Of a stretch of 64,000 bases of DNA, positions 14,962 through 32,210 are shown piece after piece. Numbering within the stretch: the first letter of the stretch is position 1; every line of letters begins with the position of its first letter. This DNA comes from an uncultured Flavobacteriales bacterium (GTDB taxonomy: Bacteria > Bacteroidota > Bacteroidia > Flavobacteriales_G > Salibacteraceae). Where the stretch lies: assembly GCA_937121175.1 (NCBI GenBank), contig CAKZKD010000005.1, positions 248,001 through 312,000 on the forward strand. The letters are read 5' to 3'. Position numbers and translations under genes: made by a program. The notes below the pieces were generated by a model that saw only the letters and a list, made by a program, of their open reading frames with translations, was not told the origin of the DNA and did not search any database.

Positions 14962-14969
14962 TAGCTTTG
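14962..14969 (+). promoter_or_regulatory. Upstream -7 box before the glycogen-synthase-like gene
   Basis: TAGCTTTG, a perfect TAnnTTTG match on the plus strand, 39 bases before a second perfect box. It could be a second start site. Confidence 0.35.
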
Positions 14970-15000: not shown

Positions 15001-15008
15001 TACTTTTG
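15001..15008 (+). promoter_or_regulatory. -7 promoter box for the glycogen-synthase-like gene
   Basis: TACTTTTG, a perfect match, 21 bases before the ATG at 15030. It lies within a possible TTG-initiated extension (from 14967) and so supports the shorter protein. Confidence 0.6.
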
Positions 15009-15029
15009 CAGCAACTTAAAAACAGATAT

Positions 15030-15857
15030 ATGTCGGATACTACAAGAGTATTATTTGTAACGCAAGCCATGCAACCATACTTACCTGAAACAAGAATAAC
15101 AAAAATTTGTCGGGAATTACCGCAGGCTGTTCAGGAGAAAGGCAGAGAAATTAGAAATTTCATGCCGCGTTATGGTAATATCAACGAAAGAAGACATCAA
15201 TTACACGAAGTTATTCGTCTATCTGGAATGAACCTAGTTGTAGATGATCACGATCATCCTCTAATAATAAAAGTAGCTTCTATTCAACCAGCTAAAATGC
15301 AGGTTTACTTTATTGACAACGAAGAGTATTTCAAAAGAAAATCGGCTTTGGCTGATCTTGACGGAAACGCTCACGAAGATAATGATGAGCGAATGATTTT
15401 CTTCTGTAAAGGGGTTATCGAAACGGTTAAAAAATTAGGTTGGGCTCCTGACATTATTCACTGCCATGGTTGGATGAGTTCGTTACTTCCACTTTTCATC
15501 AAAAAGGTATATAACAACGAGCCAATGTTTGCGAATTCTAAATTGGTTTTCTCAGTATATAATGATGGCCTGGAGCAACCCTTGAATACCAAGTTATTTG
15601 AAAAGCTTCAATACGAGAACATCGACGCTTCTGAATACGATTCATTGAAAGACCCGAGCTACGACAACTTAAACAAATTTGGTGCAAGTTGTGCCGATGC
15701 TGTAATAATTGCTGAAGATGGTGCTAGTCAGAATGTAATCGACTACGTTAATGGATTGGATAAACCAGTACTCGATGGAACAATGGAAGATTATGTGGAT
15801 GCATACGATGCATTCTATGACGAGGTTAATAATCTAGAAAATGCTTTAGCGGATTAG
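15030..15857 (+). CDS. Truncated glycogen/starch synthase-like protein (GT5 N-terminal domain only)
   Basis: 275 residues, against about 480 for a full glycogen synthase. It resembles the GT5 N-terminal domain: VLFVTQAMQPYLPET, REIRNFMPRYGNIN, FFCKGVIETVKKLGWAPDIIHCHGWMSSLLPL. The KxGGL ADP-glucose motif expected near the N-terminus is replaced by ETRITKICRELP, and the whole C-terminal Rossmann domain is absent, with a natural stop and an acidic tail. Proteins like this occur in Bacteroidota between panC and DUF4270 genes, as here, so this is a lineage form and not a fresh break. An active glycogen synthase is unlikely; a binding or regulatory role is possible. The ATG at 15030 fits the family start and the -7 box. 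Confidence 0.8.
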   Translation: MSDTTRVLFVTQAMQPYLPETRITKICRELPQAVQEKGREIRNFMPRYGNINERRHQLHEVIRLSGMNLVVDDHDHPLIIKVASIQPAKMQVYFIDNEEYFKRKSALADLDGNAHEDNDERMIFFCKGVIETVKKLGWAPDIIHCHGWMSSLLPLFIKKVYNNEPMFANSKLVFSVYNDGLEQPLNTKLFEKLQYENIDASEYDSLKDPSYDNLNKFGASCADAVIIAEDGASQNVIDYVNGLDKPVLDGTMEDYVDAYDAFYDEVNNLENALAD

Positions 15858-15862
15858 CATAC

Positions 15863-17188
15863 ATGACCTTTAAAAACATACTTAACAATTTACGACCCCA
15901 ACTTGTTGGGGTCGTAATGGTTTTAGTCCTTTTTTCATGTAAGAAAAAAGAAGAAAATCCAGAACCAACCGGAATTGAAGTTCAACCAACCGAAAATTTA
16001 CTTGGGCTTTTTACCACAACCGACTTTAAACTTGTTTGCACGACACAACGTATAGATTCTGTGCGAACTGATGCTGCAGATTTAAGCACCGTCGGTAGTT
16101 ACGTTGACCCAATATTTGGAAAAGTTAGTTCATCATTTGTTACTCAATTGCGTTTATCCTCCGAAAACATCGACGTGAATGGATTAAGAAATGTAAAGAT
16201 TGACTCTGCCGTTCTAAACTTAGTATATTCTGGAAGATATGGAGCCTCAAATAATCAATCGATCGAAGTTTTTGAGGTCACCGAGGCCTTGTCAACATCA
16301 GATTTTTATTACAGTAGCTCACCCATTCAAGAATCTGCGGAAAATATTGGGTCATTATCCGACTTCGCACCAGTGCCTTCTGCGCCAATAACAGCCGATG
16401 GCAGTCTGGAGTCACCATCTATTCGCATTCCTATTGATACCACATTTGCCCGAAAATTATTTACAACCGATGCATCAAACTATGCTAGCAACGCAGCATT
16501 TACAAGTTTTTTGAACGGAATCGTAGTGAAACCCAACAACCCAACTCAGGGTTCCGAAGAGGGTGGTCTGTTGTATTTTTCCTTACCCGATGTTTACAGT
16601 AGGCTAATTGTCTATTACACAAATCCAGATAGTACTCGGAGCGAGCTTGCGTACTTAATAAACGACAAGAGTACCACCTTTAACCTTTCAAAAATGGATT
16701 ATAACGAATCGGATGTAGGTGCAGTATTAGAGCAACCGCAACCCGATGCCGATTTAATTTATGTGCAGAGTTTTGGAGGCACCATGGTTAAAGTTGAAAC
16801 TCCTGATATTACCAAAATCATTGAAAATGGGCCTGTATTGGTAAATTATGCCAAGCTATCCTTTAGTGCGGATATTTCCTCGAATATTTACCCCGCTATA
16901 CTCAATTTATTTCTATTTGGATTATCTGAAGATGAAACCTTACTATACGAATTACCCGATAAAGGTGAAGTGCATTATGACGGCGCCATCAATTCAAGTG
17001 GAGCTTATAAAATCGGTTTAACTCGATATATTCAAGGTGTATTGGATGGTAAGATTGAAAATAACGGATTACTTTTGAGAGAACTTGGTGGCATTGGTGC
17101 ACGGTCTATTATTTATGGCCCAGGTAATGCTACTAAGCCATTAACATTAGAAATTTCTTATACACCAATAAGCTCAGAAACGAAGTAA
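15863..17188 (+). CDS. DUF4270 lipoprotein
   Basis: 441 residues with a lipoprotein signal (QLVGVVMVLVLFSCKKK, Cys about 26). The mature part matches the DUF4270 family: TQRIDSVRTDAADLSTVGSYVDPIFGK near the N-terminus, a middle with IDSAVLNLVYSGRYG, and a C-terminal segment near KPLTLEISYTPI. The function is unknown; family members are predicted outer-membrane or surface lipoproteins of Bacteroidota. It starts 5 bases after the glycogen-synthase-like gene and ends 1 base before glmS. The start at 15863 is needed for a charged n-region. The signal-peptide codons contain a perfect 12-base inverted repeat. Confidence 0.82.
   Translation: MTFKNILNNLRPQLVGVVMVLVLFSCKKKEENPEPTGIEVQPTENLLGLFTTTDFKLVCTTQRIDSVRTDAADLSTVGSYVDPIFGKVSSSFVTQLRLSSENIDVNGLRNVKIDSAVLNLVYSGRYGASNNQSIEVFEVTEALSTSDFYYSSSPIQESAENIGSLSDFAPVPSAPITADGSLESPSIRIPIDTTFARKLFTTDASNYASNAAFTSFLNGIVVKPNNPTQGSEEGGLLYFSLPDVYSRLIVYYTNPDSTRSELAYLINDKSTTFNLSKMDYNESDVGAVLEQPQPDADLIYVQSFGGTMVKVETPDITKIIENGPVLVNYAKLSFSADISSNIYPAILNLFLFGLSEDETLLYELPDKGEVHYDGAINSSGAYKIGLTRYIQGVLDGKIENNGLLLRELGGIGARSIIYGPGNATKPLTLEISYTPISSETK
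15890..15917 (+). promoter_or_regulatory. Perfect hairpin inside the DUF4270 signal-peptide codons
   Basis: TTACGACCCCAA and TTGGGGTCGTAA form a perfect 12-pair stem with a CTTG loop, 27 bases after the start codon. It is followed by a moderately T-rich stretch. It may lower or pause expression of this gene relative to its upstream neighbour; I infer this from position and stability only. Confidence 0.6.
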
Positions 17189-17189
17189 T

Positions 17190-19031
17190 ATGTGTGGAAT
17201 AGTCGGTTACATTGGAACTAAAGAAGCTTACCCCATAATTATAAAAGGTTTGCAAAGACTCGAATATCGTGGTTACGATAGTGCGGGCGTTGCGCTTTTA
17301 GAAAGTGGAGAAATTAACTTGTACAAAAAGCAAGGTAAGGTTTCGAAATTGGAAGAATTCTCTGCTGACAAAAATCGGAAAGGAAACTTAGGAATTGGTC
17401 ATACACGTTGGGCAACCCACGGAGAACCTAATGATGTAAATTCTCACCCTCACTTATCGAACAATGGCAATTTGGTCATGATTCATAATGGAATTATTGA
17501 GAACTATGCGGCCATTAAAGCAGAGCTCGTAAAACGAGGTTATACATTTCAAAGTGAAACCGATACTGAAGTTCTATTGAACTTGATTGAGGATATCCAA
17601 ACCAATGAACAAGTAGCACTGGGAACAGCAATGAGAAAGGCACTCAATCATGTAATTGGAGCCTACGCAATTGCTTTGATTGATAAAAACGATCCAGGAA
17701 AACTGTATGCTGCACGTAAGAGTAGCCCACTGGTTATCGGAATTGGTGAAAATGAATATTTCGTTGCATCCGATGCTTCTCCAATCGTTGAATACACCAA
17801 GAATGTGCTGTATCTTGATGACGAAGAAATTGCCATTCTAGAACCCGGCAAAGACATCGACCTATTTACGCTCCAGAACAAAGAGAAAACTCCGTACATT
17901 CAAGAACTAGAAATTCAATTAGAAGCAATTGAGAAAGGTGGCTATGATCACTTTATGCTCAAAGAAATTTACGAGCAACCCAGTTCTATTAAGGACAGTA
18001 TGAGAGGGCGACTGGCTCTTAAAAAAGGCATTGTAAACCTTGGCGGAATTCAGGACTACGAACAAACTTTAATGAACGCAAATCGCATCATTATCGTAGC
18101 CTGCGGTACAAGCTGGCATGCTGGTTTGGTTGGGGAATATCTATTTGAAGATTTCGCCAGAATCCCGGTAGAAGTAGAATACGCAAGTGAGTTTCGTTAT
18201 AGAAACCCAGTGTTATATGAGAATGACGTTGTAATTGCAATTTCTCAATCTGGAGAGACTGCAGACACTCTTGCCGCAATCGAATTGGCGAAATCAAAAG
18301 GCGCAACCGTTTTTGGTGTTTGTAACGTCGTTGGTTCATCAATATCAAGAGCTACGCATGCCGGGTCGTACACACATGCAGGCCCTGAAATTGGTGTAGC
18401 AAGTACAAAAGCGTTTACGGCTCAGATTACAGTATTAACTTTAATGGCGTTAAGTATCGGTCACAAAAAGGGAACTATTCCCGTGTCTAGGTACCGAACG
18501 TTATTAAACGAGATTAATTCGATTCCAAAATTGGTGGAGCGTTGCTTGAAAACAGAAGCTGATATTAAGGAAATATCGGCTCGGTTTCAAAATGCATCCA
18601 ACTTTTTATATTTAGGTAGAGGGTACTCCTTTCCAGTTGCACTTGAAGGCGCACTTAAGTTGAAAGAAATTTCGTATATACACGCTGAAGGGTATCCAGC
18701 AGCAGAAATGAAACATGGCCCTATTGCGCTTATTGATGAAGAAATGCCTGTGGTGGTTATTGCCACAAAAGGCCCTTCTTACGAGAAAGTAGTTAGCAAT
18801 ATTCAGGAAGTAAAAGCTAGAAAAGGAGTTGTAATTGCCATTACAACTGAGGGCGATGTGGATGTGAAAGGGATGGCCGATTACACCATTGAAATTCCTG
18901 AAATTGAGGAAGCACTAGTGCCGTTCTTATCTGTAGTTCCGCTCCAATTACTTTCTTATCATATTGCAGTAATGCGTGGTTGCAATGTTGACCAGCCGCG
19001 TAACCTAGCAAAATCTGTAACAGTAGAATAA
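17190..19031 (+). CDS. glmS: Glutamine--fructose-6-phosphate aminotransferase GlmS
   Basis: 613 residues. The N-terminal amidotransferase begins MCGIVGYIG with the nucleophile Cys2, then RLEYRGYDSAGVA, GHTRWATHGEPN and HNGIIENY. Two SIS sugar-isomerase domains follow (CGTSWHAGLVGEYL, SQSGETADT, LGRGYSFPVALEGALKLKEISYIHAEGYPAAEMKHGP), ending in PRNLAKSVTVE. It makes glucosamine-6-phosphate for peptidoglycan and lipopolysaccharide. No glmS ribozyme is expected or seen: the gap to the DUF4270 gene is one base. Confidence 0.97.
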   Translation: MCGIVGYIGTKEAYPIIIKGLQRLEYRGYDSAGVALLESGEINLYKKQGKVSKLEEFSADKNRKGNLGIGHTRWATHGEPNDVNSHPHLSNNGNLVMIHNGIIENYAAIKAELVKRGYTFQSETDTEVLLNLIEDIQTNEQVALGTAMRKALNHVIGAYAIALIDKNDPGKLYAARKSSPLVIGIGENEYFVASDASPIVEYTKNVLYLDDEEIAILEPGKDIDLFTLQNKEKTPYIQELEIQLEAIEKGGYDHFMLKEIYEQPSSIKDSMRGRLALKKGIVNLGGIQDYEQTLMNANRIIIVACGTSWHAGLVGEYLFEDFARIPVEVEYASEFRYRNPVLYENDVVIAISQSGETADTLAAIELAKSKGATVFGVCNVVGSSISRATHAGSYTHAGPEIGVASTKAFTAQITVLTLMALSIGHKKGTIPVSRYRTLLNEINSIPKLVERCLKTEADIKEISARFQNASNFLYLGRGYSFPVALEGALKLKEISYIHAEGYPAAEMKHGPIALIDEEMPVVVIATKGPSYEKVVSNIQEVKARKGVVIAITTEGDVDVKGMADYTIEIPEIEEALVPFLSVVPLQLLSYHIAVMRGCNVDQPRNLAKSVTVE

Positions 19032-31499: not shown

Positions 31500-32210
31500 A
31501 TGATTAAACCGTTTTTCTTACAAGTAACCGTAGCATCAGACACAGCAAGCGCAGCTGCAGGAGCTGAAGGAATGCCAACCGAAGGAACACTATCTGTTCT
31601 CGATTTAATAGCAGGCGGTGGTTGGTATATTATGGGTCCTCTGGGCATTTTGTCAATTGTTGCCATTTATATTTTTATCGAGCGGTTTTTAGCTATCCAA
31701 AAAGCCCAGTCTTTAGACCCTGCGTTCATGAATAAAATGAAAGACTTTATTCATGATGGTAAAATGCAGGCAGCACAAGATTTATGTAAAAAGACCCCTA
31801 CTCCATTTGCGAGAATGTTATTGAAAGGGGTGAACAGAATCGGTAAGCCACTCGGTGATATTTCAGCAGCAGTTGAAAATGTTGGTAAACTTGAAATTTA
31901 CAACCTAGAAAAATCACTTTCTACGTTAGCTACAATTGCTGGAGCCGCACCAATGATTGGTTTCTTAGGAACTGTGATAGGTATGATTAACACATTCCAC
32001 GAGATGTACTCCGCTGGAAATAGCGTAGAAATTTCGAACCTTTCAGGTGGAATTATGCAAGCAATGGTTACCACCGCTGCAGGTTTGGTCATTGGAATAA
32101 TCGCTTATGTTGGTTACAACATGTTAGTTGCCAAAGTGGATAAGGTGGTGCATAAAATGGAAGCAACCTCAATTGAATTCATGGACTTACTGCAAGAGCC
32201 TGTAAAATAA
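31500..32210 (+). CDS. exbB: ExbB/TolQ/MotA-family proton channel subunit
   Basis: 236 residues with three membrane spans: MGPLGILSIVAIYIFIERF, then after a cytoplasmic loop LSTLATIAGAAPMIGFLGTVIGMINTFH and AMVTTAAGLVIGIIAYVGYNMLV. The GFLGTVIGMI and TTAAGLVIGI motifs are typical of ExbB. With ExbD it uses the proton gradient to power TonB and outer-membrane receptors. It heads an operon with exbD and a TonB-like gene, so the ExbB name is preferred over TolQ. An Ala-rich N-terminal extension precedes the first span. Confidence 0.92.
   Translation: MIKPFFLQVTVASDTASAAAGAEGMPTEGTLSVLDLIAGGGWYIMGPLGILSIVAIYIFIERFLAIQKAQSLDPAFMNKMKDFIHDGKMQAAQDLCKKTPTPFARMLLKGVNRIGKPLGDISAAVENVGKLEIYNLEKSLSTLATIAGAAPMIGFLGTVIGMINTFHEMYSAGNSVEISNLSGGIMQAMVTTAAGLVIGIIAYVGYNMLVAKVDKVVHKMEATSIEFMDLLQEPVK

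Follow-up and report, generated by a model that had tools for sequence, protein, structure and literature searches.

A putative intrinsic terminator that doubles as signal-peptide codons of a DUF4270 lipoprotein at the recurring GT5-DUF4270 junction

The pyrBI attenuator responds to UTP. Terminators lying close behind a stop codon or inside a reading frame have been described in E. coli, where, according to the sections of PMC4824070 on this subject, a distance of more than 27 nt between stop codon and terminator gives maximal termination (PMC4824070). In the tR2 construct W48, a terminator placed 30 bp into a second ORF remains largely efficient and gives rise to non-stop mRNAs, and the loss of termination on translating the second ORF of the E. 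coli analogue came to only some 10% (PMC4824070, same sections). Among the matches listed for DUF4270, intragenic terminators, attenuation and Bacteroidota in open-licence PMC papers, none describes an arrangement of hairpin and signal peptide like the one reported here. The dual-coding anatomy of this element is our finding, and the regulation that it might exert is offered as a hypothesis.

The window, which is the whole stretch of DNA that was analysed (64,000 nt), contains the following features around the hairpin:

15001..15008, + strand: TACTTTTG, 21 nt upstream of the ATG of GT5, fitting the Bacteroidota -7 promoter consensus TAnnTTTG
15030..15857, + strand: GT5, a stand-alone starch/glycogen-synthase catalytic domain (PF08323), the upstream gene
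15863..17188, + strand: DUF4270 (PF14092) lipoprotein gene, with signal-peptide codons 15863-15937 and lipobox Cys codon 15938-15940
15890..15917, + strand: stem-loop, with arms 15890-15901 and 15906-15917, loop 15902-15905 and a G-C-closed core 15893-15914
15918..15935, + strand: T-rich tail 3' of the stem, with TTTT at 15921-15924 and TTTTTT at 15930-15935, coding for the hydrophobic core of the signal peptide
17190..19031, + strand: glmS, directly 3' of DUF4270 with a 1-nt gap

For GT5, the ATG at 15030 was assumed to be the start, and its ORF is open from the TTG at 14967. The GT5 stop codon TAG (15855-15857) precedes the stem by 32 nt and its G-C core by 35 nt. The order GT5-DUF4270 is very widely kept: a GT5 match is located upstream on the same strand in 125 of the 127 loci of our class set, glmS is often the next gene, and DUF4270 (PF14092) is present in 366 of 395 genomes of the class. 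The motif TAnnTTTG is quoted as the Bacteroidota -7 promoter consensus in PMC7366714; it is rarer in the window (54 matches) than in shuffles (mean 81.7), and the 15001 site is a consensus match only. The + strand has no TAnnTTTG from 15009 to 17069 and so shows no promoter of this kind for DUF4270 on its own. The next match, TACTTTTG at 17070-17077 (+), is located in the 3' end of DUF4270, 112 nt before glmS, and is a possible promoter for glmS alone.

The perfect 12-base inverted repeat with a 4-base loop that the initial annotation had placed inside the DUF4270 signal-peptide codons lies exactly at 15890-15917. Its letters are TTACGACCCCAA-CTTG-TTGGGGTCGTAA, forming 12 perfect pairs, six of them G-C, around a 4-nt loop; read as DNA, the same repeat makes 13 pairs around TT and is a near-perfect 28-bp palindrome. 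The stem-loop begins with codon 10 of the 441-aa DUF4270 ORF and runs through codon 18 to the first base of codon 19, and its codons spell L-R-P-Q-L-V-G-V-V of the signal peptide. The T-tract of the window is weak and interrupted, with TAATGGTTTTAG directly 3' of the core and 6 T in the next 12 nt.

Several tests were applied to the origin of this stem. For the 91-nt region the folding energy is -24.9 kcal/mol, whereas its shuffles average -14.2 (z -3.5; 0 of 200 shuffles as stable), and none of 200 synonymous recodings of its own signal-peptide codons is as stable as the hairpin (z -4.6). Perfect inverted repeats with arms of at least 10 and a loop of 3-10 number two in the 64-kb window, where a first-order Markov model expects 0.90, and for arms of at least 12 with a loop of 3-8 the Markov expectation is 0.000 per 64 kb (60 draws). 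The stem goes beyond what base composition, dinucleotide content and the encoded peptide explain, and on the recodings and the Markov expectation the early judgement that it is very unlikely to be a chance product stands. The other repeat with arms of at least 10 (31726-31756, 11 bp, 9-nt loop) is inside ORF 31500-32210, whose sequence we take to be that of a MotA/TolQ/ExbB-type protein. A G+C-rich hairpin with a short loop, the form expected of an intrinsic terminator, is found in the window stem and in relatives. A simple consensus terminator scan also flags the stem, its total of 7 being not clearly higher than the shuffle mean of 4.9 (sd 2.5). The minus strand folds well too, but the scan gives no minus-strand site at the stem, and a terminator on that strand was rejected. 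A scan of 15500-16500 against Rfam 15 returned three matches up to E 1, all far below the gathering scores.

Similar hairpins recur across the class. The core was defined as a hairpin of -8 kcal/mol or better with 6 or more T among the 12 nt that follow, and 190 loci could be placed relative to GT5, namely 122 of the class set and 68 named loci found through glmS. The hairpin core lies inside the signal-peptide codons in 77 of the 190; the start is possibly after the stem in 16, two have no scorable start and the core is absent in 95, counts that are not prevalence estimates because the loci were chosen for spread and by score, not at random. Within the 77, 67 loci (the window included) offer no start codon, of whatever type, beyond the beginning of the stem, and 10 were assigned by an ATG-only rule. 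Two inside cases, L137 and L168, show no difference from L113 and L118 over 120 nt, and without these duplicates 75 of 188 distinct loci are inside cases. Of the 53 family labels of the class set, 24 include an inside case, and the stems of the 77 start in all three codon phases (43/9/25). Stem sequences differ widely between families, with some motifs recurring. Named holders include Pedobacter sp. SYP-B3415, Fluviicola sp. XM-24bin1, Nafulsella turpanensis, Roseivirga thermotolerans and Hymenobacter gummosus, the hairpin of the last being not significant against recoding (23/200). In named Flavobacteriaceae no core was found except weak ones in Gillisia hiemivivida (L182) and one MAG (L212), neither of them significant against recoding (15 and 32 of 200). 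The element is also absent in 10 of 11 f56 loci, in all five f34 loci and in all three f59 loci; in two of the f34 loci (L088 and L091) the hairpin is significant against recoding but has fewer T's after it than the core definition asks for.

The first part of the class set comprises 87 genomes with a match, of which 86 loci were read and G021, with its match split over two contigs, was left out. The second part consists of the best 30 of the loci listed for the PF14092 genomes and 16 loci picked for family spread; L106-L108, L111 and L115, among the best 30, repeat genomes already in the set and were uncounted, and four further loci repeating genomes were used only as control DNA. The resulting 127 loci divide into 47 with the hairpin inside, 24 with it before or ambiguous, 54 with none and two without Cys. 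Three loci (L052, L071, L085) were excluded from the recoding test, which covers 124, and L059 and L079 have no GT5 match, which leaves the 122 counted above. The named set was drawn from the best 80 of 582 relatives: L146, L156, L176, L187 and L202 had too little DNA before glmS and were unscanned, and from the 75 scanned loci two without an ORF, L139, L181, L195 and L203 (chosen frame unlike DUF4270) and L179 (no GT5 match) were removed, leaving 68. GT5 was also looked for in 15 genomes that gave no PF14092 match, and 8 of the 15 had a GT5 match. The longest frame near the GT5 match in L218-L221 reaches a ATGTGTGGAAT start like that of glmS, and it is probably a divergent DUF4270. In L011, a 46-nt near-perfect inverted repeat (-39.4 kcal/mol) lies upstream of DUF4270, between about 163 and 118 nt ahead of the lipobox Cys codon.

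Synonymous recoding was compared between DUF4270 loci and control lipoprotein-like ORFs taken from the same DNA. With at most 10 of 200 recodings as stable, 68/124 class-set loci and 19/69 named loci stand out against 7/45 controls, a control figure that is above expectation at the 5% level, so that the test is somewhat lenient. At the stricter level of at most 1 of 200, the figures are 47/124 and 14/69 against 1/45. The T-runs that follow the significant hairpins were treated in the same manner: the longest run has a mean of 5.44 observed and 4.17 recoded (70 loci), and it is above the recoded mean in 59 of the 70 (Wilcoxon 3.6e-10; 60 of 70 in another random run). Averaged by family, the excess is positive in 20 of 22, and a run of at least 5 T follows the stem in 51 of 70 loci. 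Although T's pairing with A's 5' of the stem could raise T-runs through pairing alone, this excess points to termination rather than to mere mRNA structure. Within the control DNA, the element is also specific to DUF4270. Twenty stretches and the window hold 54 lipobox ORFs, with a core in the signal-peptide codons of 9/17 DUF4270 ORFs and 0/37 others; across all 363 ORFs of this DNA, 13 have a core in the first 100 nt, eight being DUF4270 and five other ORFs.

The position of the hairpin is regular with respect to both neighbours. In the 95 loci with a core, the distance from the GT5 stop to the G-C core has a median of 35 nt (MAD 7), and the core ends at a median of 33 nt before the Cys codon (MAD 7), equal spreads by which spacing alone cannot tell a terminator from a signal-peptide element. 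When starts were permitted from 20 nt before the GT5 stop onward, the first usable start lies at a median of 3 nt from that stop in 78 inside-type loci and of 12 nt in the other 103. From the nearest ATG to Cys, the signal peptide has a median of 27 residues in 58 inside loci against 22 in 80 loci, a greater length that arises partly by construction, because the stem must fit between start and Cys. This geometry fits a frame whose start would have moved upstream, across a terminator that was already there, until it adjoined the GT5 stop.

Compensatory changes in aligned relatives, proposed together with the first description of the stem as a check on it, are borne out in part. Within the window's genus, L003 and L004 still form 12 pairs, with A-T replacing T-A at the outermost position and with a different loop, and L002 keeps most of the stem in a partly degraded form; three further genera of the family carry a shorter stem, placed at the same codons. 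Over seven rows of the window's relatives (six distinct), 90.5% of cells are paired and two pairs are changed on both sides, which is suggestive only, because 44 of 500 shuffles reach as many. A set of 11 species (one genus and a neighbour) has 96.2% of cells paired and again two doubly changed pairs, a number reached by 14 of 500 shuffles. Covariation is modest in both sets. The peptides of the relatives are alike (RPQ-xx-GVV, RPL-x-GVV), so protein constraint contributes to the conservation of the stem. That the stem has to satisfy codons and pairing together, as had been suggested, is supported by outer positions that changed and remain paired in the genus, by the changed loop and by hairpins that recur class-wide. 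In the window's genus the stem persists but the T-tract is weak.

The window stem is probably a weakened copy of an element of the intrinsic-terminator type that ends the GT5 transcript and that the DUF4270 frame overlaps. The T-tracts of many relatives, together with the terminator-like distance from the upstream stop, make an intrinsic terminator or attenuator at the GT5-DUF4270 junction likely, and we judge the hairpin more probably than not to be a terminator or attenuator. The end of the GT5 transcript would fall some 35 nt past the stop codon of GT5. DUF4270 would, in many families, start upstream of this terminator, so that stem and T-tract would be signal-peptide codons too, the stem coding for the basic n-region and early h-region and the T-tract for h-region residues of the Phe/Leu/Val type. 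Because a T-tract encodes mostly hydrophobic residues in any frame, a signal peptide is usable for a terminator. The T-tract of the window is interrupted, and its copy may therefore be a weak terminator or only a pause hairpin.

A polymerase that initiates upstream of the DUF4270 start codon has to transcribe through the hairpin before full-length DUF4270 mRNA is complete, and likewise before it reaches glmS wherever the two genes share a transcript. In vivo, the hairpin would terminate a fraction of transcripts, and ribosomes restarting at the DUF4270 start codon would run into the 5' arm and raise read-through, so that output would depend on translation. We regard such translational gating of read-through as a plausible but somewhat doubtful part of the model. 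By analogy with these E. coli cases (PMC4824070), versions with a strong T-tract should terminate a good share of transcripts, with restarting ribosomes as their natural antagonists; because the relief by translation in E. coli is so small, the gating may be weak unless reinitiating ribosomes arrive earlier than de novo ones. The full proposal, put forward tentatively, is a reinitiation-gated intragenic terminator kept in many families, in which GT5 ribosomes halt about 35 nt ahead of the hairpin, leaving it free to form, and restarting ones open it. If it is true, terminated transcripts would carry a start codon and signal-peptide codons without a stop codon, and this switch would make the expression of an envelope lipoprotein, in many cases along with glmS, dependent on translation. 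The stem could tune the output of downstream genes, as was suggested at the outset, and its retention in the genus and class-wide recurrence support this. A regulation specific to glmS was considered and is weakened by L129, which keeps the hairpin although glmS is not its next gene but lies 8.8 kb away on the other strand, and by the f56 loci, which have glmS downstream and mostly no hairpin. The L129 hairpin suggests that the element is not tied to glmS, the link being common, not general.

Other explanations of the hairpin have to be weighed against this. It might be a real but non-regulatory, leaky GT5 terminator that the DUF4270 frame has overrun and that sets a fixed ratio of GT5 to DUF4270-glmS; such a terminator would account for a spacing to the GT5 stop that is usual for terminators (median 35 nt), for families in which the hairpin precedes an ATG able to start DUF4270 (L010, L025, L030, L057) and for the 95 of 190 loci that do without the element. 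Hairpin and T-run are held against synonymous drift in many families, which argues for selection on the RNA but not for regulated over fixed output, and we judge this explanation possible, if rather unlikely. The hairpins before a start codon count, on the other hand, against an mRNA structure that acts on translation or export, by slowing ribosomes in the signal peptide or by making the start region more or less accessible, and that plays no part in termination. Stems wholly inside the signal-peptide codons in 77 of 190 loci, the steady distance to the Cys codon (median -33, MAD 7) and the poor T-tract in the window's genus would suit it, but T-runs above synonymous expectation in 59 of 70 loci and the lack of the hairpin in all 37 other lipobox ORFs make it unlikely.

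A near-perfect 28-bp palindrome could also be the DNA site of a regulator, or a mobile repeat. The 22-nt core, however, occurs at one place in the 3.7-Mb genome with up to 3 mismatches allowed, the changes within the genus are paired, and the turnover of stem sequences between families with pairing kept argues strongly against either; on single copy and turnover, operator and mobile repeat were rejected as highly improbable. As for chance, the modest covariation is what it has in its favour, and it is scarcely credible for a stem that no recoding out of 200 equals, that is expected 0.000 times per 64 kb and that recurs in relatives.

If the hairpin is indeed an intrinsic terminator within signal-peptide codons, it would be a natural and widely recurring case of one DNA stretch serving as transcription terminator and as protein export signal. 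The locus would be suited to testing whether ribosomes closely follow RNA polymerase in Bacteroidota, and the element would provide a first lead on the control of the very common GT5-DUF4270 cluster, often with glmS.

The putative terminator resembles the E. coli tR2 constructs (PMC4824070) and the ORF-internal 3' ends (PMC7815308), as far as the relevant sections of these papers describe them, in that a hairpin with a T-tract lies in the first 100 bp of an ORF, after an upstream stop. Whereas the cases in those sections are an engineered construct or single cases, the element here is found at the natural GT5-DUF4270 junction in many families, with signal-peptide codons doubling as its parts. 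It is also like pyrBI attenuation, as outlined in PMC4824070, where the terminator is inside a translated frame, so that a close ribosome can prevent the hairpin; in our case the stem is located in the reading frame between the start codon and the lipobox Cys, and its translation is what we infer. The pyrBI system uses a short leader peptide and a pause site (PMC4824070, same outline), whereas no separate leader peptide stands upstream of the structural gene here, the frame being DUF4270 itself. The element would thus represent a new variant of intragenic terminators and attenuators, located at one recurring natural junction.
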